A DNA stretch of 32,435 nucleotides from Streptomyces sp. LS1784. Its GTDB lineage: Bacteria > Actinomycetota > Actinomycetes > Streptomycetales > Streptomycetaceae. Position 1 is the first letter of the stretch. Every line of letters begins with the position of its first letter. The stretch lies in NCBI RefSeq assembly GCF_020103755.1, contig NZ_JAHSQD010000032.1, positions 1-32,435 on the forward strand, in the 5' to 3' direction. Positions 18,736 through 32,330 of this stretch are shown piece after piece. The notes beneath the pieces are model-generated. The model searched no databases, was not told where the DNA came from, and worked only from the letters and a program-made list of their open reading frames with translations. The position numbers and the translations under genes were made by a program.

Positions 18736-19926
18736 TCAGTTCTGGAAGGAAACCGGAAGGCTGGCGTAGCCGCGGAAGGTGAGGCGGTCGCGGCGCACTG
18801 CCGTGCCGGTGCGCTGCATGGCGGGCAGGCGCTTCAGTAGCAGCGGGAGTGCCAGTCGCGCCTCCGTACGGGCCAGCGCCGAGCCGAGGCAGTAGTGCGC
18901 GCCGGCGCCGAAGGAGAGTGACTGCGGGGAGTCCCGGAACGGGTCGAACCGGTTCGGATCGGCGAAGTGTGCCGGATCGTGGTTCCCCGCCCCGAGGAAC
19001 AGGAGAATGTGGCTGCCCTTCTCGATCGTGCCGATGCCGTCGATCTCGATCGTCTCGGGTGCCCACCGGCTGGTGAGTTGCAGGGGCGCGTCGAAGCGCG
19101 AGATCTCTTCGACGTACCGGTCGGCCAGGTCCGGGTCCGTCCGCAGCCGGGCGGCGAGGTCGGGGTGGTCCAGCAGGGCACCCAGGCCGTTGCCGAGGAG
19201 GTTGGCGGAGGTCTCGAAGCCCGCCAGCAGCAGGAACACGAGGTTCACGACGAGTTCGCGGGTGGACAGTTCGCCGTTGTCGCGGTCATGTGCCAGCACC
19301 AGCGTGGTGATCAGGTCCTCGCGGGGTTCGGTGCGTCGGAGCCGGGTCAGCTCGGTGACGTAATCTTCCAGTTCGAGGGCCGCGCGGTCGGCCGTGGTGG
19401 TCGGGCCGGCGGGCCGGAACGGTTCGAGGACCGCGGTCGTCTCCTGCGCCCGCTCGCGCAGCCACTGGTGCTCGCCGGCCGGGACGCCGAGCAGTGTGCC
19501 GATGATCCGGATCGTCAGCGGGTAGGCGAACTCGGCCATGAGGTCGACGGCTTCGCCGTTGCGGCCGAGTTGGGCCACGTGGTCGGCGAGGGCGGTCGCC
19601 TCTGTGGTGACGACCTCCTGCAGCCGGTCGGTCCTGCGGGGTGAGAAGGCGTCCGCGGCGAGCCGCCGGACGCGGGCGTGGTCGGGTCCGTTGGCCTTCA
19701 TCATGGAGTTCGCGATGAGGTGTGAGGCGGCGCCGTCCGGCCGGCCCCGGACCTCCAGGCGCGGGTCCCGCAGCAGTGCGTTGACGGCGTTGTAGCCGGT
19801 GGCCGCGTAGAAGTCCGGTCGCAGGCGCACCACGGGCCCGTGGGCGTGGAGAGCGGCGTACGCGGGATAGGGGTCTTGGCGGCCGGCGGGTGACGCCAGG
19901 TACTGATATGCCTCGCCGAGCAGCAT
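18736..19926 (-). CDS. Cytochrome P450 (bacterial class I), last gene of the peptide/prenyl unit
   Basis: Soluble heme monooxygenase of 396 residues. The ATG at 19926 (MLLGEAYQYL) is preferred because GAGGA stands eight bases upstream. A GTG five codons earlier overlaps that site. Visible motifs are the I-helix LLLAGFETSANLL with the oxygen-activating AGFET (235-239), the K-helix EEISR (ExxR, about 274-277) and the heme loop FGAGAHYCLG with Cys near 346. PDHARVRRL is the C-helix. It begins 63 bases after the DUF2332 stop in the same direction. No ferredoxin or reductase is nearby, so redox partners would come from elsewhere. In context it may oxidise or cross-link the aromatic tail of the peptide encoded upstream (inference). 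It could instead oxidise a terpenoid. Confidence 0.9.
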   Translation of the reverse strand: MLLGEAYQYLASPAGRQDPYPAYAALHAHGPVVRLRPDFYAATGYNAVNALLRDPRLEVRGRPDGAASHLIANSMMKANGPDHARVRRLAADAFSPRRTDRLQEVVTTEATALADHVAQLGRNGEAVDLMAEFAYPLTIRIIGTLLGVPAGEHQWLRERAQETTAVLEPFRPAGPTTTADRAALELEDYVTELTRLRRTEPREDLITTLVLAHDRDNGELSTRELVVNLVFLLLAGFETSANLLGNGLGALLDHPDLAARLRTDPDLADRYVEEISRFDAPLQLTSRWAPETIEIDGIGTIEKGSHILLFLGAGNHDPAHFADPNRFDPFRDSPQSLSFGAGAHYCLGSALARTEARLALPLLLKRLPAMQRTGTAVRRDRLTFRGYASLPVSFQN

Positions 19927-19989
19927 GCCGGGATTCCTCACGTAGAGAACGAGCCGCTGGGTCGGCGGCGTGTCGGGAGCGCTCCGAGC

Positions 19990-20952
19990 TCAGGAGTACT
20001 GGATCAGCTGGAGCCGTGGTGGCATCGTCCAGTCGTGGGGTTCGAAGGCGATGCGGGTGAGCGGCAGGGTGGCGGCGGCGTCGGTCATGATCTGTTCCAG
20101 GGCGTCCTGTTGGCCGGGTTCGAGGAATCCCCAGAACAGGCTGTGCCAGACCACGGTGCGCACCGACGGATCGGCCGGCGTGGCCAGCTCGCGCCGCAGC
20201 CACCCGACCGCGTCCGCCTGTTCCACCCGGACCGGGGTGCGGGCGGCGAGGTCAAGCGCGTCGTCGAGGGCGGCTCGCAGGAAGGTGTGTTCGAAGGGCA
20301 GGTAGCTCCGTACGGTCTGCGCGTCGGCCGGATCGGCGGGGTCGCGGGGGTGCAGGTCGCAGCCGGCGCGCGCCACGATGGCGATGCTGCCGGGATCCGG
20401 GCCGTGGGCGGGCAACCGGACCGGTGAGGTGGGGTCGCCCCACTCCCAGCCGGGCCCGAACCACCGGTAGTGGTCGATCAGCAGGTTGAGCCCGGTGCAG
20501 GCGCCGAGTTCGAGCAGTCGGATCCGCGGGGCCCGCAGCAGTGCGAGGCCGTGCAGCAGCGTTGCGGCACGGACGGGCTCGTGCTGCTGCACCGGGTTGT
20601 CCAGCGCAGTGGCGATCTCGGCGGGGTGGTCGGCGATCGCCGTGACGAAGAGCTCCCACGACCGGTCGGTGCCGCGCGGTTCGAGTCCGTCCGTCGCGCT
20701 CGACTCGGCCAGGTGTGCGGTCAGCCGGGGAAGCCGCCCGGCGGTCAGCAGGCCCTGGACCCCGGCCATGGCCCGGATGGTGAACAGGGGTGCGCCGGCC
20801 TGGGGGTGCTGTCCGATCAGGCGGGTCACCGGCCCGCCGTGCTCGACGTCGTCGGCGAGTCTGGCCAGCAGTCCCGATGCGAAGGGAGCGGCCCCGGCGG
20901 ACCGTGCGGCCATCGACCGCAGCAGCTCCGGACGGTCGATCAATTCGTTCAC
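19990..20952 (-). CDS. DUF2332 family protein, methyltransferase-like fold
   Basis: Product of 320 residues matching DUF2332. The GTG at 20952 overlaps the stop of the polyprenyl synthetase gene (GTGA), giving translational coupling. The central LLELGACTGLNLLID (about 146-160) resembles motif I of Rossmann-fold SAM methyltransferases. VRTVVWHSLFWGFL further on occupies the place of a later strand and its loop. The N-terminus (PFASGLLARLADDVE) is the usual helical DUF2332 lead-in. The biochemical role of the family is not established to my knowledge, and methyl transfer is an inference from the glycine loop. Its place between a prenyl-synthetase-like gene and a P450 suggests a tailoring step. 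Confidence 0.8.
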   Translation of the reverse strand: MNELIDRPELLRSMAARSAGAAPFASGLLARLADDVEHGGPVTRLIGQHPQAGAPLFTIRAMAGVQGLLTAGRLPRLTAHLAESSATDGLEPRGTDRSWELFVTAIADHPAEIATALDNPVQQHEPVRAATLLHGLALLRAPRIRLLELGACTGLNLLIDHYRWFGPGWEWGDPTSPVRLPAHGPDPGSIAIVARAGCDLHPRDPADPADAQTVRSYLPFEHTFLRAALDDALDLAARTPVRVEQADAVGWLRRELATPADPSVRTVVWHSLFWGFLEPGQQDALEQIMTDAAATLPLTRIAFEPHDWTMPPRLQLIQYS

Positions 20953-21950
20953 GCGGAAACTCCGTTCGGCACCGCTTGGGCAGAGGTGTGGATCACGCCG
21001 TGCAGCAGCTCCCGGTACGTGCCGTCCGGAGCGAGTCGGTCGAGCACCGCGCAGCAGTGCTGCCGCAGCGACTCGACCCGGCGCCCGTAGCCGTCGAGGA
21101 CGGACGGGTCCCGCAGGGCGGCTCGCAGTTCCGCGCGGGCGCCCGGATCGGTGCCGACCCGGGCACGCAGGCGCAGCAGGTGCTCCCGGTGCGCGGGTGC
21201 GGCGACTTCGAGCGCGTGGGCCAGTAGGAGGGTGCGGGTGCCGTTGGCCAGATCCTCGAACTCCTGTGCCGGGCTGGGAACTCCGTCGTTGCCGAGCTGT
21301 CGCAGGACGCCGAAGAGCTCGCCGAAGGTCCGCCAGGACCGCACGGTTTCGGGCCGGTCCGTGGCGAGCCTGGCCGCCATCGCCGCGTCGCGGCCGTAGG
21401 CGGCGCCGCTCTTGCCCCGGTAGCAGGCCATGACGGACCGCCACGTGACGGCGTCGTCCGCCGGCTCGGCGATGTCGGCCAACTGGCCCTCCAGCGCGTC
21501 CAGCGCGGTGCGGACCAGTTCCTGCTCCCAGGCGAGGCGGATGTCCGGGGCTGTGGAGTGCCGGTCGATCACCCAGTGGGGGAGTGTGCTCCCGCAGGCC
21601 ACGGCTGCCAGGGTGGTGCGCGCCAGTTCGGACCTGCCCCGAGGTGCGGCCGGGCCCTGTCCGTCGGCGAGGTCGTCGAGGGCTTCGGCCCCCGCCCACC
21701 ACAGCCGGGAGACCGCACACACCGTGGCCGCCGGCCGGGGCTCGCCGGTGAGCGTTCCGAGAACGGCCATGCCCAGGAGGCGGAAGGGACTTCGGCTGCC
21801 GCCGTCCGCTGCCAGCAGGCCGGCGGCCGCGTCCGCCAGGCCCGGGTGGTCGCGGCGCAGGTCCTCCAGCACCACGGCGATCTCCGTGCCCACGGCTGCG
21901 AACCAGTCGGGGGGAACCGTCAGCGGTTCGGCAGTCTCGGTGGGATTCAT
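20949..21950 (-). CDS. Polyprenyl-synthetase-like protein, resembling ComQ prenyltransferases
   Basis: All-helical isoprenoid-synthase-like protein of 333 residues. The ATG at 21950 follows AAGGAC at seven bases. The first aspartate motif is intact: WWAGAEALDDLADGQ, DDxxD at 92-96. CYRGKSGAAYG (Lys180) matches the KTG-type diphosphate-binding segment. At the second aspartate motif the usual DDxxD is replaced by RQLGNDGVPSPAQEFEDLA (about 217-235), followed by NGTRTL, which matches the GK.TLP position. Loss of the second DDxxD to an ND form is seen in ComQ-type enzymes, which prenylate a small peptide rather than extend a chain. A 51-residue peptide gene lies directly upstream. Alternatives are a degenerate polyprenyl synthase or a class I cyclase-like enzyme. 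Confidence 0.75.
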   Translation of the reverse strand: MNPTETAEPLTVPPDWFAAVGTEIAVVLEDLRRDHPGLADAAAGLLAADGGSRSPFRLLGMAVLGTLTGEPRPAATVCAVSRLWWAGAEALDDLADGQGPAAPRGRSELARTTLAAVACGSTLPHWVIDRHSTAPDIRLAWEQELVRTALDALEGQLADIAEPADDAVTWRSVMACYRGKSGAAYGRDAAMAARLATDRPETVRSWRTFGELFGVLRQLGNDGVPSPAQEFEDLANGTRTLLLAHALEVAAPAHREHLLRLRARVGTDPGARAELRAALRDPSVLDGYGRRVESLRQHCCAVLDRLAPDGTYRELLHGVIHTSAQAVPNGVSA

Positions 21951-22014
21951 CGATGTGTCCTTGTGGTCGGGCCCGCCGGCGCTCCGGCGGCCGTTCGCGG
22001 TGCGGGGGAGGGGG

Positions 22015-22052
22015 CCCGCACTCGCCCGGGGGACGCGCCGGGCGAGTGCGGG
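22015..22052 (-). terminator. Hairpin between peptide gene and polyprenyl synthetase (attenuator candidate)
   Basis: 15-bp perfect stem CCCGCACTCGCCCGG (22015-22029) / CCGGGCGAGTGCGGG (22038-22052), 8-base loop. It lies 13 bases after the peptide stop and 65 bases before the next start. Such leaky hairpins let a small peptide be expressed in excess over its processing enzymes. Confidence 0.7.
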
Positions 22053-22064
22053 CAGGGACGCCGA

Positions 22065-22220
22065 TCAGCAGTAGGTGTAGAACCCCTCTATCACGGTAAC
22101 GGTCCGCTGGTCCGCGCAGGATGACGGCGTGCTCGGGTCGGTGGGCTGCTCGCCCTCCAGCAGGCGCTCCGCCGCCTCGATCACGGCGAAGGTGTCCTCG
22201 GCAAGCATGTTCTGCGACAA
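22065..22220 (-). CDS. Candidate ribosomal peptide precursor, 51 residues, ends in GFYTYC
   Basis: Short gene easily missed because it starts with TTG. TTG at 22220 has an excellent ribosome site (AGAGGAG) seven bases upstream. The in-frame ATG at 22208 would be 19 bases away. The product has an acidic helical N-terminus (NMLAEDTFAVIEAAERLLEG), a Pro/Ser/Thr hinge (EQPTDPSTPSS) and a C-terminal part with Cys35 and Cys51 around ADQRTVTVIEGFYTY. Leader, hinge and a short aromatic core form a layout typical of RiPP precursors. The hairpin and three enzyme genes downstream (ComQ-like, DUF2332, P450) follow in the same direction. Modification could be prenylation of Cys51 or Tyr, P450 ring closure between Tyr/Phe residues, or a disulfide. 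All are inference. No protease or exporter gene is adjacent. Confidence 0.7.
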   Translation of the reverse strand: MSQNMLAEDTFAVIEAAERLLEGEQPTDPSTPSSCADQRTVTVIEGFYTYC

Positions 22221-22603
22221 CGCAGTTCTCCTCTCGGGGAAAGTGGACCGCCGGCCTGCCGCCGGATGCGGGTCGCGCCGGAGGTCCGAACTGGCCGTGA
22301 CGCTACGGCAGCGGGAGCCGGGACAGTTGTGCGTCCGTGCACGGGAAATGTCCCAGAAGAGAAACTGAACTGACGATCTATCGGTCGATCGGCCCGAGGC
22401 GGGAGGTGAGTTGACCGGATACTCGGAGGCGTCGGCTTCGCGGGGAATGGATGGGCGAAACGCTGGTCGGGCGCGAGCACGACGTGAGGTGGCTCGGCGG
22501 GCTCCTGGTCGATCTCCAAGGCGCTGGCGGGGTATAGGTGCTGGGAGGCCAGGGAGGACCAGGGGGCGGTGGCTGCGCGCCGCCGGGCCGTCGGCCCGTT
22601 GGA
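22221..22603. other. Upstream region of the peptide unit
   Basis: About 380 bases. It holds the minus-strand promoter region of the peptide gene. A minus-strand TAGCGT at 22305-22300 could be a -10, but without a convincing -35. An imperfect dyad CGATCTATCGGTCGATCG at 22374-22391 may be an operator. It also contains a short plus-strand regulator remnant at 22451-22537. Confidence 0.35.
22451..22537 (+). pseudogene. N-terminal remnant of a LuxR-family (LAL-type) regulator
   Basis: ATG 22451 opens a 28-codon frame, GETLVGREHDVRWLGGLLVD then LQGAGGV, and stops with TAG at 22535-22537. 'LvGRe.E...L..LL..a..G.GGV' is how large ATP-binding LuxR regulators begin, immediately before the Walker A loop. 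After the stop the frame goes on VLGGQGGPGGGG, a poor Walker A. The rest of the regulator is absent. It probably was the pathway regulator of one of the adjacent biosynthetic units. Confidence 0.55.
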
Positions 22604-22909
22604 TCAGAGGCCGAAGCGGGTGCGGTGGGTGATGGGAATCAGGTCGGTGTACTCGGGGTGCTTGATCATCCAGTCGCGGATGAAGGGGCAGTAGGGCAGG
22701 ACGGCGAGCTGGTGCTCGCGGGCCGCGTCCAGGGCGGTGCGGGCCAGCCGGCTGCCGAGTCCGCGGCCCTCGAAACGGGGGTCGATTCCGGTGTGGATGA
22801 AGGCGATCTCGTTGCCGGAGCGGTGGTACTCGGCGAAGCCGGCGAGTTCGCCGTCGTCGTGGATCTCGAACCGGGACTTCGCGGTGTTGTCGGTGACGGA
22901 CTGTTCCAT
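22604..22909 (-). CDS. Small GNAT-type N-acetyltransferase (YjdJ-like)
   Basis: 101-residue acetyltransferase of the short GCN5-related group (Acetyltransf_CG). It begins RFEIHDDGELAGFAEYHRSG and carries IAFIHTGIDPRFEGRGLGSR, whose GRGLGS loop binds acetyl-CoA. It ends with PFIRDWMIKHPEYTDLI, also typical. The ATG has a very strong ribosome site (GAGGAGGAA) six bases upstream. Members of this group acetylate small amines or protein side chains; the substrate is unknown. It lies between the two biosynthetic units, reads the same way and has its own upstream A/T-rich region. It is more likely a bystander than a pathway enzyme. Confidence 0.88.
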   Translation of the reverse strand: MEQSVTDNTAKSRFEIHDDGELAGFAEYHRSGNEIAFIHTGIDPRFEGRGLGSRLARTALDAAREHQLAVLPYCPFIRDWMIKHPEYTDLIPITHRTRFGL

Positions 22910-23015: not shown

Positions 23016-23051
23016 CCCCCTGCTCATCGCGGTTCGGCGATGAGCAGGGGG
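23016..23051 (-). terminator. Hairpin overlapping the stop codon of the terpene-unit P450
   Basis: 15-bp perfect stem CCCCCTGCTCATCGC (23016-23030) / GCGATGAGCAGGGGG (23037-23051), 6-base loop GGTTCG. The P450 stop (23026-23024) lies inside the left arm, so the last codons double as terminator stem. It separates the terpene pair from the GNAT and peptide unit downstream. Confidence 0.75.
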
Positions 23052-24376
23052 CCGCGCGGGCGGACGGTGGCGGCGGTGGCGTTCTCCCTGACCGGGGTGG
23101 CCGTGGCCGGCCTGAGCCGCAGGCGGGCGAGGACGGCTGCGGCGATGACGAGCATCTCGGTCCAGGCGAAGGACTCGCCGACGCACTTGTGGTGGCCGGC
23201 GCCGAAGGGGATGAACAGCCTGGCTGGGGTGCGATCCGCAGGACGGCGCCAGCGGTCGGGGTCGAATCGCAAGGGGTCGGGGTGGAGCTGGGGGGAGCGG
23301 TGCAGTGCGGTCGGGCTGAAGAGGACCTCCGCCCGCGGAGGCAGGAGGATGCCGCCGTAGTGGAGCGGCGCCACCGTCCGGCGCATCAGGATCCAGTTGG
23401 GGGTGTGGAGCCGGAGGGTCTCGGTGATCGCGTGCCCCGTGCGTTCCAGGTGCGGCAGGTCGTCCGGGGACACGGCGCCGTTGGCAGCGACGGCGCGCAC
23501 CTCCTCGCTCAGCTCGTCCTGCAGGTCCTGGTGCTGGGCGAGTTCGTGGAAGAGCCAGGCGAGGGTGGTGGCGGTCGTCTCGGTGCCGGCCAGGAGCAGC
23601 GAGACCGCTTCGTCCCGTACCTGGGCCGGTGCCATGGCGAGGCCGGTCTGCTCGTCTCGGGTGGTCAGCAGCAGGGAGAGCAGCGTGTCGTCCGGGCCCT
23701 GGTGTTGGCCGGTGGCCTGTGTGACGATCTCGTCCACGACGGCGCGCAGGTCCCGGACCGCCGTGTCGAAGCGCCGGTTGGCCGGCACGGGCAGCTTCTC
23801 CAGCAGCGGTGAGGGGTAGAGCGCCCGTTGGACGAATCCGGTGAGGACCACGGGCACGGCCCGGTCGATCCGGGCTTTCTGGGCGAGGTTCAAGTGGGTG
23901 GCGAACAGCGCCTCGGCCACGATGTCCCGGGCGAGTTCGTGCATGCGTGGCTCGATCGGTGCGGCCCGTCCGGGCTCCCAGCGGGACACCGCCGCCGCTG
24001 CCAGTCGCGCGGTCGACGTGGCGTACCGGCGGATGCTGTCGCGGTGGAAGGCCGGCTGGACCAGCCGCCGCTGGCGGAGGTGGAACGCGCCCTCGGAGAC
24101 GAACAGACCGTTGCCCAGCACGCCGCGGGCCTTGTCGAAGACGAAGCCCTTCTCGGTCTTCGCGGCGTCCTTGACGAGCAGCCGGTGGACGAGTTCGGGA
24201 TCGGTGAGCACGTGAACCGGCCTGCGCCACAGGTGGATCCGCACCACCGGCCCATGGTCGGCCAGTGACTGCAGGAAGGGCACGGGGCGGGTCAGCAGCG
24301 GGAGCAGGTGTCCGAGCAGGGGCAGGCGGCCCGGCGCACGCGGCGCGGCGTCGGCCTGGGGGGCGTCCTGGCGCAT
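23024..24376 (-). CDS. Cytochrome P450 partner of the terpene synthase
   Basis: Heme monooxygenase of 450 residues, longer than the P450 at 18736 and of a different subgroup (resembling CYP183/PtlI-like terpene oxidases). Motifs are SLLLAGTETTATTLAW in the I-helix (AGTETT 263-268), ETLRLH (ExxR 319-322), a DPDRW meander and the heme loop FGAGHHKCVG with Cys398. Its ATG overlaps the terpene synthase stop (TGATG), so the two are coupled. The encoded enzyme likely oxidises the product of that cyclase. Use of a proline-rich N-terminus (PRAPGRLPLLGHLLPL) is typical of the subgroup. No dedicated ferredoxin is present. Confidence 0.9.
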   Translation of the reverse strand: MRQDAPQADAAPRAPGRLPLLGHLLPLLTRPVPFLQSLADHGPVVRIHLWRRPVHVLTDPELVHRLLVKDAAKTEKGFVFDKARGVLGNGLFVSEGAFHLRQRRLVQPAFHRDSIRRYATSTARLAAAAVSRWEPGRAAPIEPRMHELARDIVAEALFATHLNLAQKARIDRAVPVVLTGFVQRALYPSPLLEKLPVPANRRFDTAVRDLRAVVDEIVTQATGQHQGPDDTLLSLLLTTRDEQTGLAMAPAQVRDEAVSLLLAGTETTATTLAWLFHELAQHQDLQDELSEEVRAVAANGAVSPDDLPHLERTGHAITETLRLHTPNWILMRRTVAPLHYGGILLPPRAEVLFSPTALHRSPQLHPDPLRFDPDRWRRPADRTPARLFIPFGAGHHKCVGESFAWTEMLVIAAAVLARLRLRPATATPVRENATAATVRPRGPLLIAEPR

Positions 24377-25371
24377 CAGTGCCTCGCCGGAGGTGTCGGC
24401 ACGTCGAACCGGGAGCTGCTGCGGGACCAGTCGATGTGCCCGCGCAGCCACAGCCCGAGGCTCCGGGCGTACGCGGAGGCCGCGTCACTGCCGCCCGCGT
24501 GGATGGTCCGGCTCAGCTCGACGAACGCGCGCATCTCGGCGTCACGCAGGGCGACGGCCGACTGCCGGGCCTCGGCCGGCGAGCAGCGGTGGTGGCGGGC
24601 CAGGACCTCGACCAGGTTGTGGTGGCCCTGGCCGCCCGCGGTCTCCTTGGCGTGGGAGTACAGGTCGTTGTCCCAGCTCACCAGGTTCGCCGTGAGGTCC
24701 CTGAGCCTGCGCAGCGACGGGCCGTCCGCCTCCGCGGCCGGGACTTCGTAGCCGGCCGCGACGTCGACCAGGGCGAGGCAGGTGTACGTCGCCCCGGCGT
24801 GCCTGCGCATCGCCACGTATTCGGACAGGCCCGGGACCGTGCCCGCCTCGCGGTTGGCGGCCTCCCACACCTGGGCGGAGAGGTAGTCGCGGACCGTGCA
24901 CTCCCAGCGGAACAGCTGTGACGGCGAGGCCTGCGCGGCGACCCGGTCCCGGATCTCCCGCAGGGCCGGCGCATAGGCGCCGACCGGTCCGGACACCTCG
25001 CCGCTGGGCGGCTCGGGGTCGATCACCCGGGCGAGCAGAGCGGTCGTGCGGGCCAACGGCCCGGGGCGGGAGCCGCGTTCACGGTCCTCGCAGTACCCGT
25101 CGTCGAAGGCGAAGAGCCACACGTACCAGTCGGACAGCAGGCGCAGCATCTCGGCGGAGACCTCGGGGTTGGTCCGCGCGGCCAGGTGACCGCTGCGCTG
25201 GCGCCCGATCCGGTCCGACTGCCGCAGCTGTCCGTCCAGCAGCCGGTGGCGCGCCAGCCAGTCCAGGCTCTGCCGGTCGGCCTGCTCGGCGTGGGAGTTC
25301 GTCAGGGAGGGGAAGGGGCACCATAAGCCGTCCGAGAGGTTGCATGGTTGCCCGTCGCGGAGATCGGTCAT
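24376..25371 (-). CDS. Class I terpene synthase (probable sesquiterpene cyclase)
   Basis: Cyclase of 331 residues converting a prenyl diphosphate, most likely farnesyl diphosphate, into a cyclic terpene. The aspartate-rich motif is FAFDDGYCED (Asp90-Asp91 and Glu95). The NSE motif is NDLYSHAKE (Asn235, Ser239, Glu243). Arg189/190 in MRRHAGA supplies the diphosphate sensor. The usual C-terminal RY pair appears as RF in SSSRFDV near the end. Length and motifs are those of actinobacterial terpene synthases of the TS-type Pfam group. The ATG at 25371 follows AGAGGAAGG. It is first in a two-gene operon with the P450. Its product cannot be predicted. Confidence 0.9.
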   Translation of the reverse strand: MTDLRDGQPCNLSDGLWCPFPSLTNSHAEQADRQSLDWLARHRLLDGQLRQSDRIGRQRSGHLAARTNPEVSAEMLRLLSDWYVWLFAFDDGYCEDRERGSRPGPLARTTALLARVIDPEPPSGEVSGPVGAYAPALREIRDRVAAQASPSQLFRWECTVRDYLSAQVWEAANREAGTVPGLSEYVAMRRHAGATYTCLALVDVAAGYEVPAAEADGPSLRRLRDLTANLVSWDNDLYSHAKETAGGQGHHNLVEVLARHHRCSPAEARQSAVALRDAEMRAFVELSRTIHAGGSDAASAYARSLGLWLRGHIDWSRSSSRFDVPTPPARH

Positions 25372-30442: not shown

Positions 30443-30934
30443 ATGAGGGAACCATTCGAGAAGGCGGTCGAGCAGCACGGCGCGACCGTGCTGCGGGTGT
30501 GCCGGGCGCTGCTGGGGACACACGACGCCGACGACGCCTGGTCGGAGACGTTCCTGGCGGCGATGCGGGCTTGGCCGGGGCTGCCGGAGACGGCGAACGT
30601 GGAGGCGTGGCTGGTGACGATCGCCCGGCACAAGGCGATCGACGTGCTGCGCGCCGCCGGACGCCAGCCGCTGCCAGCCGAGGAATTGCCGGAGGCGCCC
30701 AGCTCGTTGGGCGTTCCGGGCGCCGAGGACGGGGAGCTGTGGGAGATGGTGGGGCGCCTTCCGGGCAAGCAGCGGCAGGCGGTCACGTTCCGCTACCTGG
30801 CCGGGATGTCGTACGACGAGATCGCGGCGGTCCTGGGCGGGAACACCGTGGCGGCACGCCGGGCGGCGGCGGACGGTCTGAAGAATCTACGAAAACACTA
30901 TCCGGGCGCGACCTCGAGAGGAGCATCTACATGA
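30443..30934 (+). CDS. ECF-type RNA polymerase sigma factor
   Basis: Sigma-70 family factor of 163 residues with regions 2 and 4 only. Region 2 is FEKAVEQHGATVLRVCRALL to EAWLVTIARHKAIDVLRAAG (about 5-75). Region 4 is LPGKQRQAVTFRYLAGMSYD followed by EIAAVLGGNTVAARRAAADG (about 110-155). The ATG at 30443 is close to GGCGAGG, and the frame remains open upstream without recognisable sigma sequence. It overlaps the next gene by four bases (ATGA). No anti-sigma factor gene is present where one is usually found. That place is taken by an alkylguanine alkyltransferase gene. It probably transcribes alkylation-repair genes, including its own operon (inference). Confidence 0.88.
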   Translation: MREPFEKAVEQHGATVLRVCRALLGTHDADDAWSETFLAAMRAWPGLPETANVEAWLVTIARHKAIDVLRAAGRQPLPAEELPEAPSSLGVPGAEDGELWEMVGRLPGKQRQAVTFRYLAGMSYDEIAAVLGGNTVAARRAAADGLKNLRKHYPGATSRGAST

Positions 30935-31548
30935 GCGGCACCCGATCCCACGATGACGTCCTGAGCATGCTGTCGGCTCCCGTCGACGCCGGGACCCTGG
31001 CCCGGCTGCACCGCCGGCTGGAGGCCGAGGCCCAGGCCGCCGCCCTGGTCGACATCGCCTACACCGTCGTCGACTCCCCGGTCGGCCCTCTGCTGCTGGC
31101 CGCCACCGACCGGGGCCTGATCCGCGTCGCCTACGCGGTCGAGAACCACGACCAGGTCCTGCAGACCCTGGCCGACAAGGTCAGCCCGCGCATCCTGCGC
31201 GCCCCCGGCCGACTGGACACCGCCGCCCGGGAGATCGACGAGTACTTCGACCACCGCCGCCAGGCGTTCGACCTGCCGCTGGATCTGTCCCTGTCCAAGG
31301 GCTTCCGGCAGCTGGTCCAGCAACACCTGCCGGAGATCGGCTACGGCCAGACCCGCAGCTACCGCCAGGTCGCCGAACTGGTCGGCAGCCCCAAGGCCGT
31401 TCGGGCGGTCGGCACGGCCTGCGCCACCAACCCGCTGCCGGTGGTCGTCCCCTGCCACCGGGTGCTGCGCTCCGACGGCACCCTCGGCGGCTACATCGGC
31501 GGCCTGGAGGCCAAGACCGCCCTGCTGGAACTGGAGGCCGCGGCATGA
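30931..31548 (+). CDS. ogt: Methylated-DNA-protein-cysteine methyltransferase with N-terminal extension
   Basis: Suicidal DNA repair protein of 205 residues that transfers an alkyl group from O6-alkylguanine to its own Cys. The active site is VVVPCHRVLRSDG (Cys near 174), preceded by the DNA-binding helix SYRQVAELVGSPKAVRAVG and followed by GGYIGGLEAKTALLELE. The Ogt-like N-terminal domain starts at YTVVDSPVGPLLLAATDRGL (about residue 42). The first 40 residues (SHDDVLSMLSAPVDAGTLAR then LHRRLEAEA) are an extra helical segment. The ATG overlaps the sigma-factor stop and has a strong GAGAGGAG site. Sitting where an anti-sigma normally sits, the extension could contact the sigma factor (inference). 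Confidence 0.92.
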   Translation: MSGTRSHDDVLSMLSAPVDAGTLARLHRRLEAEAQAAALVDIAYTVVDSPVGPLLLAATDRGLIRVAYAVENHDQVLQTLADKVSPRILRAPGRLDTAAREIDEYFDHRRQAFDLPLDLSLSKGFRQLVQQHLPEIGYGQTRSYRQVAELVGSPKAVRAVGTACATNPLPVVVPCHRVLRSDGTLGGYIGGLEAKTALLELEAAA

Positions 31549-32330
31549 CCGCCACCACCGTCACCAAGACCAGGACGACGACGAGGAAGACGGCTCCCGG
31601 CGCGGATGTCCCCGCCGGAGCCGGGCCGTGGGCCGGCCGGGCCGAGGCCGCCGACTGGGACGCGGTGGCCGCCGAACTCGACGCGTTCGGAGGCGCGCTG
31701 CTGCCCCAGCTGCTCACCCCCGACGAGGCCGCCCGGCTCCGGGACCTGTACGAGCGGCCCGAGCTGTTCCGCTCCACCGTCGACATGGCCCGCCACCGGT
31801 TCGGGTCCGGCGAGTACAAGTACTTCCACGCCCCCTACCCCGAGCCGGTCGAACAGCTCAAGCAGGCCCTGTACCCGCGGCTGCTGCCCATCGCCCGCAC
31901 CTGGTGGGAACGGCTCGGCCGGACCGCGCCGTGGCCGGACACCCTGGACGAGTGGCTGCAGATGTGCCACGCGGCCGGGCAGTCCAAGTCCACCGCGATC
32001 CTGCTGCGTTACGGCGCCGGGGACTGGAACGCGTTGCACCGTGACCTGTACGGCGACCTGGTGTTCCCGCTCCAGGTCGTGATCAACCTGGACCGGCCCG
32101 GCACCGACCACACGGGCGGGGAGTTCCTGCTGGTCGAGCAGCGCCCCCGCGCCCAGTCCCGCGGCACCGCCACCCTGCTCCCGCAGGGCCACGGCTACGT
32201 GTTCACCACCCGCGACCGGCCCGTGCGTTCCGCGCGCGGCTGGTCCGCCGCGCCGGTCCGGCACGGCGTCTCGGCGATCCGCTCAGGGCGCCGGCACACC
32301 CTGGCCCTGGTCTTCCACGACGCCGCCTAG
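31545..32330 (+). CDS. 2OG-Fe(II) oxygenase (alkylation repair operon)
   Basis: Non-heme iron dioxygenase of 261 residues. The iron ligands are His and Asp in NALHRDLYGDLVFPLQV (HxD) and a distal His in PVRHGVSAIRSGRRHTLALV. The Arg of RSGRRHTL binds 2-oxoglutarate. DHTGGEFLLVEQRPRAQSRG is the strand-loop signature shared with prolyl-hydroxylase-like members. The first 30 residues are Thr-rich and disordered. The ATG overlaps the ogt stop (ATGA). In this context it may oxidatively remove alkyl lesions, as AlkB does, but it is not of the classical AlkB sequence type. It is the last gene. A GC-rich palindrome (GGCGGCCGCCGGCC, from 32339) follows within 10 bases of the stop and could terminate transcription. 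Confidence 0.87.
   Translation: MTATTVTKTRTTTRKTAPGADVPAGAGPWAGRAEAADWDAVAAELDAFGGALLPQLLTPDEAARLRDLYERPELFRSTVDMARHRFGSGEYKYFHAPYPEPVEQLKQALYPRLLPIARTWWERLGRTAPWPDTLDEWLQMCHAAGQSKSTAILLRYGAGDWNALHRDLYGDLVFPLQVVINLDRPGTDHTGGEFLLVEQRPRAQSRGTATLLPQGHGYVFTTRDRPVRSARGWSAAPVRHGVSAIRSGRRHTLALVFHDAA

Follow-up and report, generated by a model that had tools for sequence, protein, structure and literature searches.

A RiPP-like family in Streptomyces and related bacteria that pairs Cys-ended precursor-like peptides with a polyprenyl-synthetase-like enzyme

The question raised by a 32,435-nucleotide stretch of the genome of Streptomyces sp. LS1784 (contig NZ_JAHSQD010000032.1; this whole stretch is called the window) is whether a very small open reading frame (ORF) encodes the precursor of a ribosomally synthesized and post-translationally modified peptide (RiPP), and what the enzymes encoded next to it might do to the C-terminus of that peptide. 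The first-pass annotation of the window had pointed to four minus-strand genes in a row at 18736-22220, namely a 51-residue peptide with a TTG start and the tail GFYTYC, a polyprenyl-synthetase-like enzyme, a DUF2332 protein and a cytochrome P450, and had put them forward as a candidate for an undescribed RiPP system. The ORFs and the Pfam matches agree with this layout (Table 1), the three larger proteins scoring 29 bits against PF00348 (cut-off 27), 188 bits against PF10094 (cut-off 25) and 108 bits against PF00067, respectively. There is good support for a RiPP-like family, and we give a rough probability of 0.6 to the full reading, in which the peptide is a RiPP that undergoes S-prenylation of its terminal Cys, carboxyl methylation by DUF2332 and oxidation by a P450 or a flavin adenine dinucleotide (FAD) enzyme.

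Searches were performed on 70 genomes of the genus, 394 genomes of the family and 394 genomes of the class, together with plasmids and GTDB contigs; the prenyl enzyme served as the query and is hence the constant partner by design. Ten loci of one polyprenyl-synthetase-like clade were obtained from Streptomycetaceae, Lentzea and a Frankiales metagenome-assembled genome (MAG): the window, L009 (genome G036), L010 (genome G028), L038 (Streptomyces sp. NBC_01497), L039 (Streptomyces sp. NBC_00271), L040 (S. clavuligerus F1D18), L070 (S. hyaluromycini, the same as L042/G271), L071 (S. hygroscopicus ATCC 21589), L072 (the Frankiales MAG) and L073 (Lentzea waywayandensis). Peptides with the leader and a terminal Cys were found in nine of the ten loci (15 peptides), eight of which have the peptide no more than 1 kb upstream of the enzyme, and on this count the proposal of an apparently undescribed RiPP-like family held. 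Six tandem precursors are present in S. clavuligerus, whose type strain ATCC 27064 has an identical set of six and an identical prenyl-DUF2332 region, and two copies are present in S. hygroscopicus. DUF2332 occurs in 9/10 loci and a P450 in 8/10. When the loci having both DUF2332 and the prenyl gene were considered, a pairing that the first-pass annotation had proposed to follow, eight of the nine had the peptide.

Judged by its sequence, the 51-residue ORF of the window is a conserved, real gene beyond what chance would give, because a copy with 77-79% identity stands beside orthologous enzymes in G036, a diverged form (75 residues, ending in GGTYC) is located between the P450 and prenyl genes of G028, and the peptide ranked first among the 306 small ORFs of the window with a profile built without the window peptide and the L009 copy. 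The L009 gene has the same TTG start, preceded by GAAGAGGAG, which is near-identical to GAGAGGAG of the window. Over the 51 aligned codons, the window and L009 peptide genes differ at 3, 4 and 10 sites in codon positions 1, 2 and 3, respectively, with a residue change in 10 codons and none in 4 (dN 0.10, dS 0.20), a mild sign, from few changes, that the peptide coding may be under constraint.

The alignment of the 15 peptides revealed a shared leader and a varying tail, with Leu21 and the terminal Cys invariant and Gly23 present in 14 of the 15. As their final six residues, the peptides have GFYTYC (twice), IGGTYC, GSNTWC, YTSKIC, GGYNYC, GVFWYC, GNNAYC, RPGGYC, RPQNNC, NPTNGC, NPTNHC, KPTHQC, NPGGSC and VSPPGC. 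One alternative is that these small ORFs encode proteins with a regulatory or chaperone-like role in the operon, and a leader more conserved than the tail in S. clavuligerus (83% versus 49% identity among four of the copies) would be in keeping with it. We think this very improbable in view of the tandem, tail-varying, Cys-ended copies of S. clavuligerus and the two of S. hygroscopicus, which are typical of modified precursors.

In order to gauge how far a terminal Cys could arise by chance, small ORFs ending in Cys were counted. Such an ORF was found within 1 kb upstream in 9/10 clade loci, or in 8/10 if the four leaderless ORFs of Lentzea, which look random, are left aside, and in 2/26 loci of other homologues, where it lacked the leader. 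The chance rate was 491 of 4000 random windows (12.3%), rising to 816 of 4000 (20.4%) within the clade loci alone. With leave-one-out profiles, the peptide ranked first among 105-306 small ORFs in seven of eight loci and fourth in S. clavuligerus; the E-values of the first-ranked full peptides were modest (8e-5 to 0.16). When the terminal Cys was removed, the peptide still ranked first in six of eight loci, with the Frankiales peptide second and that of S. clavuligerus third. Because the ranks hold in six of eight loci after removal of the Cys, the leader, as far as these profiles go, is common to the family independently of the Cys, although for S. clavuligerus and Frankiales this holds weakly.

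The peptide profile was also run on 335 Streptomycetaceae genomes and gave three strong matches (E 1e-13 or better) plus the G028 peptide at 4.1e-4, all four of which belong to the training set. Three further matches (7.4e-4, 0.0054 and 0.0066) end before the terminal position, have no prenyl or DUF2332 match within 1.5 kb, and look like chance. The best of them, in G207, was rejected, since no start codon was present in the roughly 40 preceding codons and there was no Cys end; in the 19 kb around it the only match was one of 64 residues at E 0.005.

The enzyme that accompanies the peptides retains DDxxD in all ten clade members (DDLAD in the window) and carries ND in place of the second Asp motif in 10/10, compared to DD in 6/6 canonical enzymes. 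GKxxRP and the RR that follows the first Asp motif were found in 0/10 clade members and in 6/6 canonical enzymes, the latter being five synthases of the window's own genome and one from Lentzea (four in the alignment, all six checked), picked without requiring the motifs counted. The predicted model (mean predicted local distance difference test score, pLDDT, 88.5) resembles geranylgeranyl diphosphate synthase 1wy0 with Z 30.8 and a root-mean-square deviation of 3.1 over 313 aligned residues. The clade enzyme therefore lacks the combination of both Asp motifs with GKxxRP and RR that marks a canonical trans-polyprenyl diphosphate synthase, and we infer from these sequence changes that it would no longer bind isopentenyl diphosphate (IPP). 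It does have the first Asp motif in a predicted isoprenoid synthase fold, a pseudo second aspartate-rich motif (SARM) with loss of the IPP residues, and a nearby precursor in nine of ten loci, as do peptide prenyltransferases that resemble trans-isoprenyl diphosphate synthases (trans-IDS), and it would depart from the characterized ones in the Trp acceptor. In ComQ, the first aspartate-rich motif (FARM) is intact and the pseudo-SARM preserves the second Asp alone (PMC5331326, PMC10853753); the ComQ-like pattern that the first-pass annotation had seen was recovered on comparison with this published description rather than by alignment with ComQ, PalQ or ChrPC sequences. In the tree, the canonical enzymes received an SH-aLRT support of 100, a sister clade 89 and the peptide-linked clade 69, which is weak.

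The sister clade (L013-L037) comprises 25 of 394 Streptomycetaceae genomes and, with the Streptomyces plasmid locus L041, makes up 26 loci. Its proteins share 33-46% identity (tblastn) with the enzyme of the window or of S. clavuligerus, and the 25 sister-clade proteins show the same loss of the IPP-binding motifs and the same ND motif. No DUF2332 match was found in the stretches fetched for these 26 loci (0/26). Five of them contained a total of six weak matches to the peptide profile (E 0.008-0.05), none Cys-ended, and a search for conserved small ORFs nearby returned just apparent antisense or flanking-gene frames. A DICGHLLL frame was seen in four close relatives.

These loci bear on another explanation, namely that the product or substrate of the enzyme is a small terpenoid and that the peptide is a separate RiPP oxidized by the P450 alone, as in biarylitides or atropopeptides. 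The motif losses in the peptide-less sister clade would be compatible with it, as would the terpene synthase and terpene-oxidizing type of P450 that adjoin the peptide in the window and L009 and the terpene synthase of L070 (16201-17400). We judge it quite unlikely: both IPP-binding motifs are missing from the enzyme, and the peptide tracks the clade enzyme, not its nearest homologues. A constant terpene cyclase partner, which the first-pass annotation had named as the sign that would speak against a peptide pathway, was not seen either; with the window's synthase as the query, a terpene synthase match was found in just 3/10 loci. The terpene synthase and second P450 (P450b) of the window might act on the prenyl donor or belong to a separate pathway. 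In Lentzea, the prenyl and DUF2332 genes have a separate canonical polyprenyl synthase gene roughly 1 kb away (L073 8064-9233), which counts in favor of the prenylation reading as a possible supplier of the donor.

As for the acceptor, the terminal Cys is the sole aligned position at which a nucleophilic side chain is invariant (15/15 peptides), and Trp occurs within the final 25 residues of just four of the peptides, while the other 11, among them that of the window, lack it there. S-prenylation is proposed because Trp is so scarce in the tails and the terminal Cys is the only invariant nucleophile, and on this sequence pattern the Cys is the likely prenyl acceptor, as had been suggested from the window alone. 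Tyr, Phe or Trp occur in the last six residues of the peptides of L070 and of the loci with the window's type of P450 (P450a), and in none of the six S. clavuligerus peptides. The former would suit a scheme in which the enzyme prenylates another residue (Tyr or Trp) or the carboxylate and the Cys serves a thioether or macrothiolactone ring, and the characterized trans-IDS-like peptide prenyltransferases are all Trp-directed according to an April 2026 review (PMC13290415). That scheme, which we regard as unlikely, has to contend with the Trp-free majority of tails, with the S. clavuligerus ends QNNC, TNGC, TNHC, THQC, GGSC and PPGC, and with the Cys being the only nucleophile kept throughout.

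Oxidative decarboxylation of the terminal Cys to aminovinyl-cysteine (AviCys), or its consumption in some other way, with no prenylation at all, is extremely improbable. AviCys precursors are marked by a C-terminal Cys, and the peptides share it. However, none of the three flavoproteins of the Cys decarboxylase family PF02441 in the own genome (1294 contigs) is encoded on the window contig, and no lanthionine-type enzyme was present among the proteins scanned.

The glycine loop noticed in the DUF2332 protein reads LLELGACTGLNL. The model of this protein (pLDDT 89.7) contains an S-adenosylmethionine (SAM) methyltransferase domain at about residues 120-320; a SAM methyltransferase fold is thus predicted for DUF2332, in line with the first-pass assignment at the level of the fold. 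The first six rows of Foldseek were SgvM and the leucine carboxyl methyltransferase PPM1 (E 5e-4 to 2e-3), with LCMT1, like PPM1 a methyltransferase of C-terminal carboxyl groups, further down, and with VIA-align many methyltransferases tied at Z 8.4-9.9 over residues of about 120-320. Pfam found DUF2332 in 19/19 members and methyltransferase families in none, and no sequence relatives were found in the PDB at E 1. From its context and the weak order of the fold matches, methylation of the Cys carboxylate by DUF2332 is plausible. The branch found at these loci is rare (3/394 Streptomycetaceae at E 1e-55). Among ordinary Actinomycetes DUF2332 loci (the 29 with DNA out of 38 places outside the own set), 0/29 had a prenyl-gene match within 1.5 kb or up to the contig edge, and therefore DUF2332 alone is not a marker. 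No paper found in the open-licence literature names DUF2332.

A P450 is encoded in eight of the ten loci. Seven of these P450s are P450a homologues, 31-88% identical to that of the window, with those of L038 and L071 closer to each other (63%); the S. clavuligerus P450 is different and is 36-37% identical to P450b of the window. In L070, which has the peptide, three P450 queries found nothing in the stretch that was fetched, and a FAD monooxygenase is present instead; in L072 such an enzyme is additional. A TauD-type dioxygenase 1.5 kb off in L073 is perhaps unrelated to the locus. P450-only RiPPs (biarylitides, atropopeptides and cittilins) combine a short precursor, near-C-terminal aromatic residues and a P450. 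Here, in contrast, the P450 is not a constant partner (8/10 loci, distantly related types, absent from some) and the prenyl enzyme, as the search query, is. The Tyr-Tyr or Phe-Tyr ring closure of the first-pass annotation was weakened as a general rule, given the six non-aromatic S. clavuligerus tails, and stays compatible with the P450a loci, which do have a tail aromatic. Since P450a loci have tail aromatics and S. clavuligerus has none, the target of the P450 may be either the prenyl chain or an aromatic residue. ABC-2 transporters of the DrrAB kind are encoded in L038, L070 and L071, and L039 has an annotated ABC protein; no transporter was found beside the window genes among the proteins scanned.

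On the reading that we favor, a short precursor with an acidic leader (motif VIEAAERLLEGE in the window) and a C-terminal Cys would be the substrate of an enzyme that has given up IPP binding and whose DDxxD would hold an allylic diphosphate. The prenyl group would be moved onto the thiol of the C-terminal Cys, with the former IPP site (Q218, N221-D222) accommodating the peptide end. DUF2332, as a putative SAM methyltransferase, would most likely next methylate the Cys carboxylate, and the P450, or the FAD monooxygenase in other loci, would carry out an oxidation, either of the prenyl chain or of the aromatic residue in the penultimate position. The leader would then be cut off by a protease and the product exported, possibly by the ABC-2 transporters in some loci. 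Overall, the interpretation of the first-pass annotation is partly supported, and its central idea survived the tests that it had named.

Several points weigh against this reading. We infer all of the chemical steps and their order, and no member of the family has known chemistry. The motif losses alone do not imply a peptide substrate, because the sister clade shares them without a peptide; Q218, found in 10/10 clade members and also in canonical enzymes, matches a Gln that a review ties to Trp recognition. Some of the peptides were found by homology or database annotation, others by listing Cys-ended ORFs, and the G028 peptide (4.1e-4) barely outscores an unrelated match (7.4e-4) in the genome search. 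In S. hyaluromycini (L070) the peptide and enzyme genes are 5 kb apart, and in Lentzea no peptide was recognizable in 16.9 kb, with nothing under E 0.8 in a profile search of the whole genome. DUF2332, which had been counted as part of the enzyme set, is common in the clade but not obligatory, with none within the 19 kb around the G028 locus. For its role, the Foldseek TM-scores are low (0.24-0.30 in most rows), and PPM1 and LCMT1 were not among the best 50 rows of VIA-align. No leader protease was identified.

The features of the window are collected in Table 1.

Table 1. Features of the candidate RiPP locus and adjoining genes, with positions in the window
Feature	Position	Strand	Basis
Precursor-like peptide, 51 residues, TTG start, tail GFYTYC	22065..22220	(-)	ORF; conserved in L009 and L010; leave-one-out profile rank 1
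Shine-Dalgarno-like GAGAGGAG ahead of the TTG start	22228..22235	(-)	Sequence; near-identical in L009
Leader motif VIEAAERLLEGE of the peptide	22149..22184	(-)	Alignment; Leu21 in 15/15 peptides, Gly23 in 14/15
Codon of C-terminal Cys51, proposed prenyl acceptor	22068..22070	(-)	Terminal Cys in 15/15 peptides
Trans-IDS-like prenyltransferase, polyprenyl synthetase fold (predicted)	20949..21950	(-)	PF00348; predicted fold; motif losses
First Asp-rich motif DDLAD, residues 92-96	21663..21677	(-)	DDxxD in 10/10 clade members
Pseudo second motif Asn221-Asp222	21285..21290	(-)	ND in 10/10 clade members; DD in 6/6 canonical enzymes
DUF2332 protein, putative SAM-dependent (carboxyl) methyltransferase	19990..20952	(-)	PF10094; predicted fold
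Putative SAM-binding glycine loop LLELGACTGLNL of DUF2332	20482..20517	(-)	L146, E148, G150, G154, L155 and L157 unchanged across 19 DUF2332 proteins
Cytochrome P450 (P450a), heme motif FGAGAHYCLG	18736..19941	(-)	PF00067; homologues in 6/9 other clade loci
Small GNAT gene, upstream of the peptide	22604-22909	(-)	
Second P450 (P450b), like albaflavenone/pentalenene oxygenases; pathway membership uncertain	23024..24451	(-)	NCBIfam, below cut-offs
Class I terpene synthase; pathway membership uncertain	24376..25371	(-)	PF19086; matches in L009 and L070

The gene order of this set, the GNAT gene excepted, is the same in G036 (L009). Next to the cluster on its downstream side, the window encodes on the opposite strand a 462-residue protein whose recognized domain is that of recombination endonuclease VII (PF02945; 16692-18080). 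At the right end of the window, the genes for an O6-methylguanine-DNA methyltransferase and an Oxygenase-NA protein (PF09859) overlap by 4 bases (30499-32330). Three of the ten loci (L038, L039 and L040) are on large linear plasmids. In L039 the DUF2332, prenyl and P450 genes are separated by transposases, with DUF2332 6 kb off and the P450 5 kb off, each behind transposase genes.

Among known systems, ComQ/ComX is alike in having an enzyme of the isoprenoid synthase fold (predicted here) with a FARM and a pseudo-SARM, an adjoining short precursor, and, as described for ComX, modification near the C-terminus; it differs in that ComQ modifies an internal Trp and shares an operon with ComP/ComA, whereas the invariant Cys here stands at the very end and the enzyme is accompanied by DUF2332 and a P450. 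The April 2026 review describes the SARM of such enzymes as repurposed from IPP to the acceptor (PMC13290415). PalQ of Paenibacillus alvei, also trans-IDS-like, requires its acceptor in PalX at the very C-terminus (PMC10853753, PMC13290415), and this need offers a precedent for the C-terminal reading of our peptides; however, the PalX acceptor is reported to be Trp, with other nucleophiles abolishing activity, and most tails here are without Trp. Enzymes of the ChrPC kind have a trans-IDS-like P domain that prenylates the peptide and a C domain that aids prenyl cyclization (PMC13290415). They act on Trp and hold the C domain in the same protein, unlike the free-standing enzyme described here, with its separate terpene synthases in 3/10 loci.

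The peptides end in Cys itself, so that no aaX proteolysis would be required, and an isoprenoid synthase fold is predicted for the enzyme; both features set it apart from CaaX prenylation and would speak for convergence, not membership. The eukaryotic CaaX transferases have a fold unrelated to the isoprenoid synthase type, and the a-factor ends in a C-terminal S-prenyl-Cys methyl ester. Eukaryotic prenyltransferases are described as zinc-using heterodimers that mostly act on a CaaX box (PMC10853753, PMC13290415). Tremerogen A-10, a fungal pheromone, is a hydroxyfarnesylated Cys methyl ester (PMC5331326), a product that by analogy matches the set of prenyltransferase, methyltransferase and oxidase. 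In prokaryotes, archaeal lipoproteins are described as carrying archaeol on a C-terminal lipobox Cys (PMC13290415), which is likewise an isoprenoid lipid on a near-C-terminal Cys, though there it is a diphytanylglycerol diether on membrane proteins and not a prenylated short peptide. Isoprenylation of Cys is generally viewed as eukaryotic (PMC5331326), and sections 1 and 2.4 of the 2026 review name C-, N- and O-prenylation of bacterial peptides and do not name S-prenylation (PMC13290415). The locus type was not described in any title or abstract from our search of the open-licence literature.

Tentatively, the family may represent a convergent bacterial counterpart of the fungal lipopeptide pheromones, with an S-prenyl Cys, a carboxyl methyl group added by DUF2332 and a P450-oxidized prenyl chain, exported and possibly used as a signal. 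If the full reading is true, the clade would contain the first S-prenylating trans-IDS-like peptide prenyltransferase and define a new RiPP class with a compact cassette for prenylation, methylation and oxidation, while a branch of DUF2332 would gain its first function and the terminal-Cys handle would be useful for peptide lipidation. The bacterial a-factor-like product that this would imply is testable in cultured S. clavuligerus, which has six precursors.

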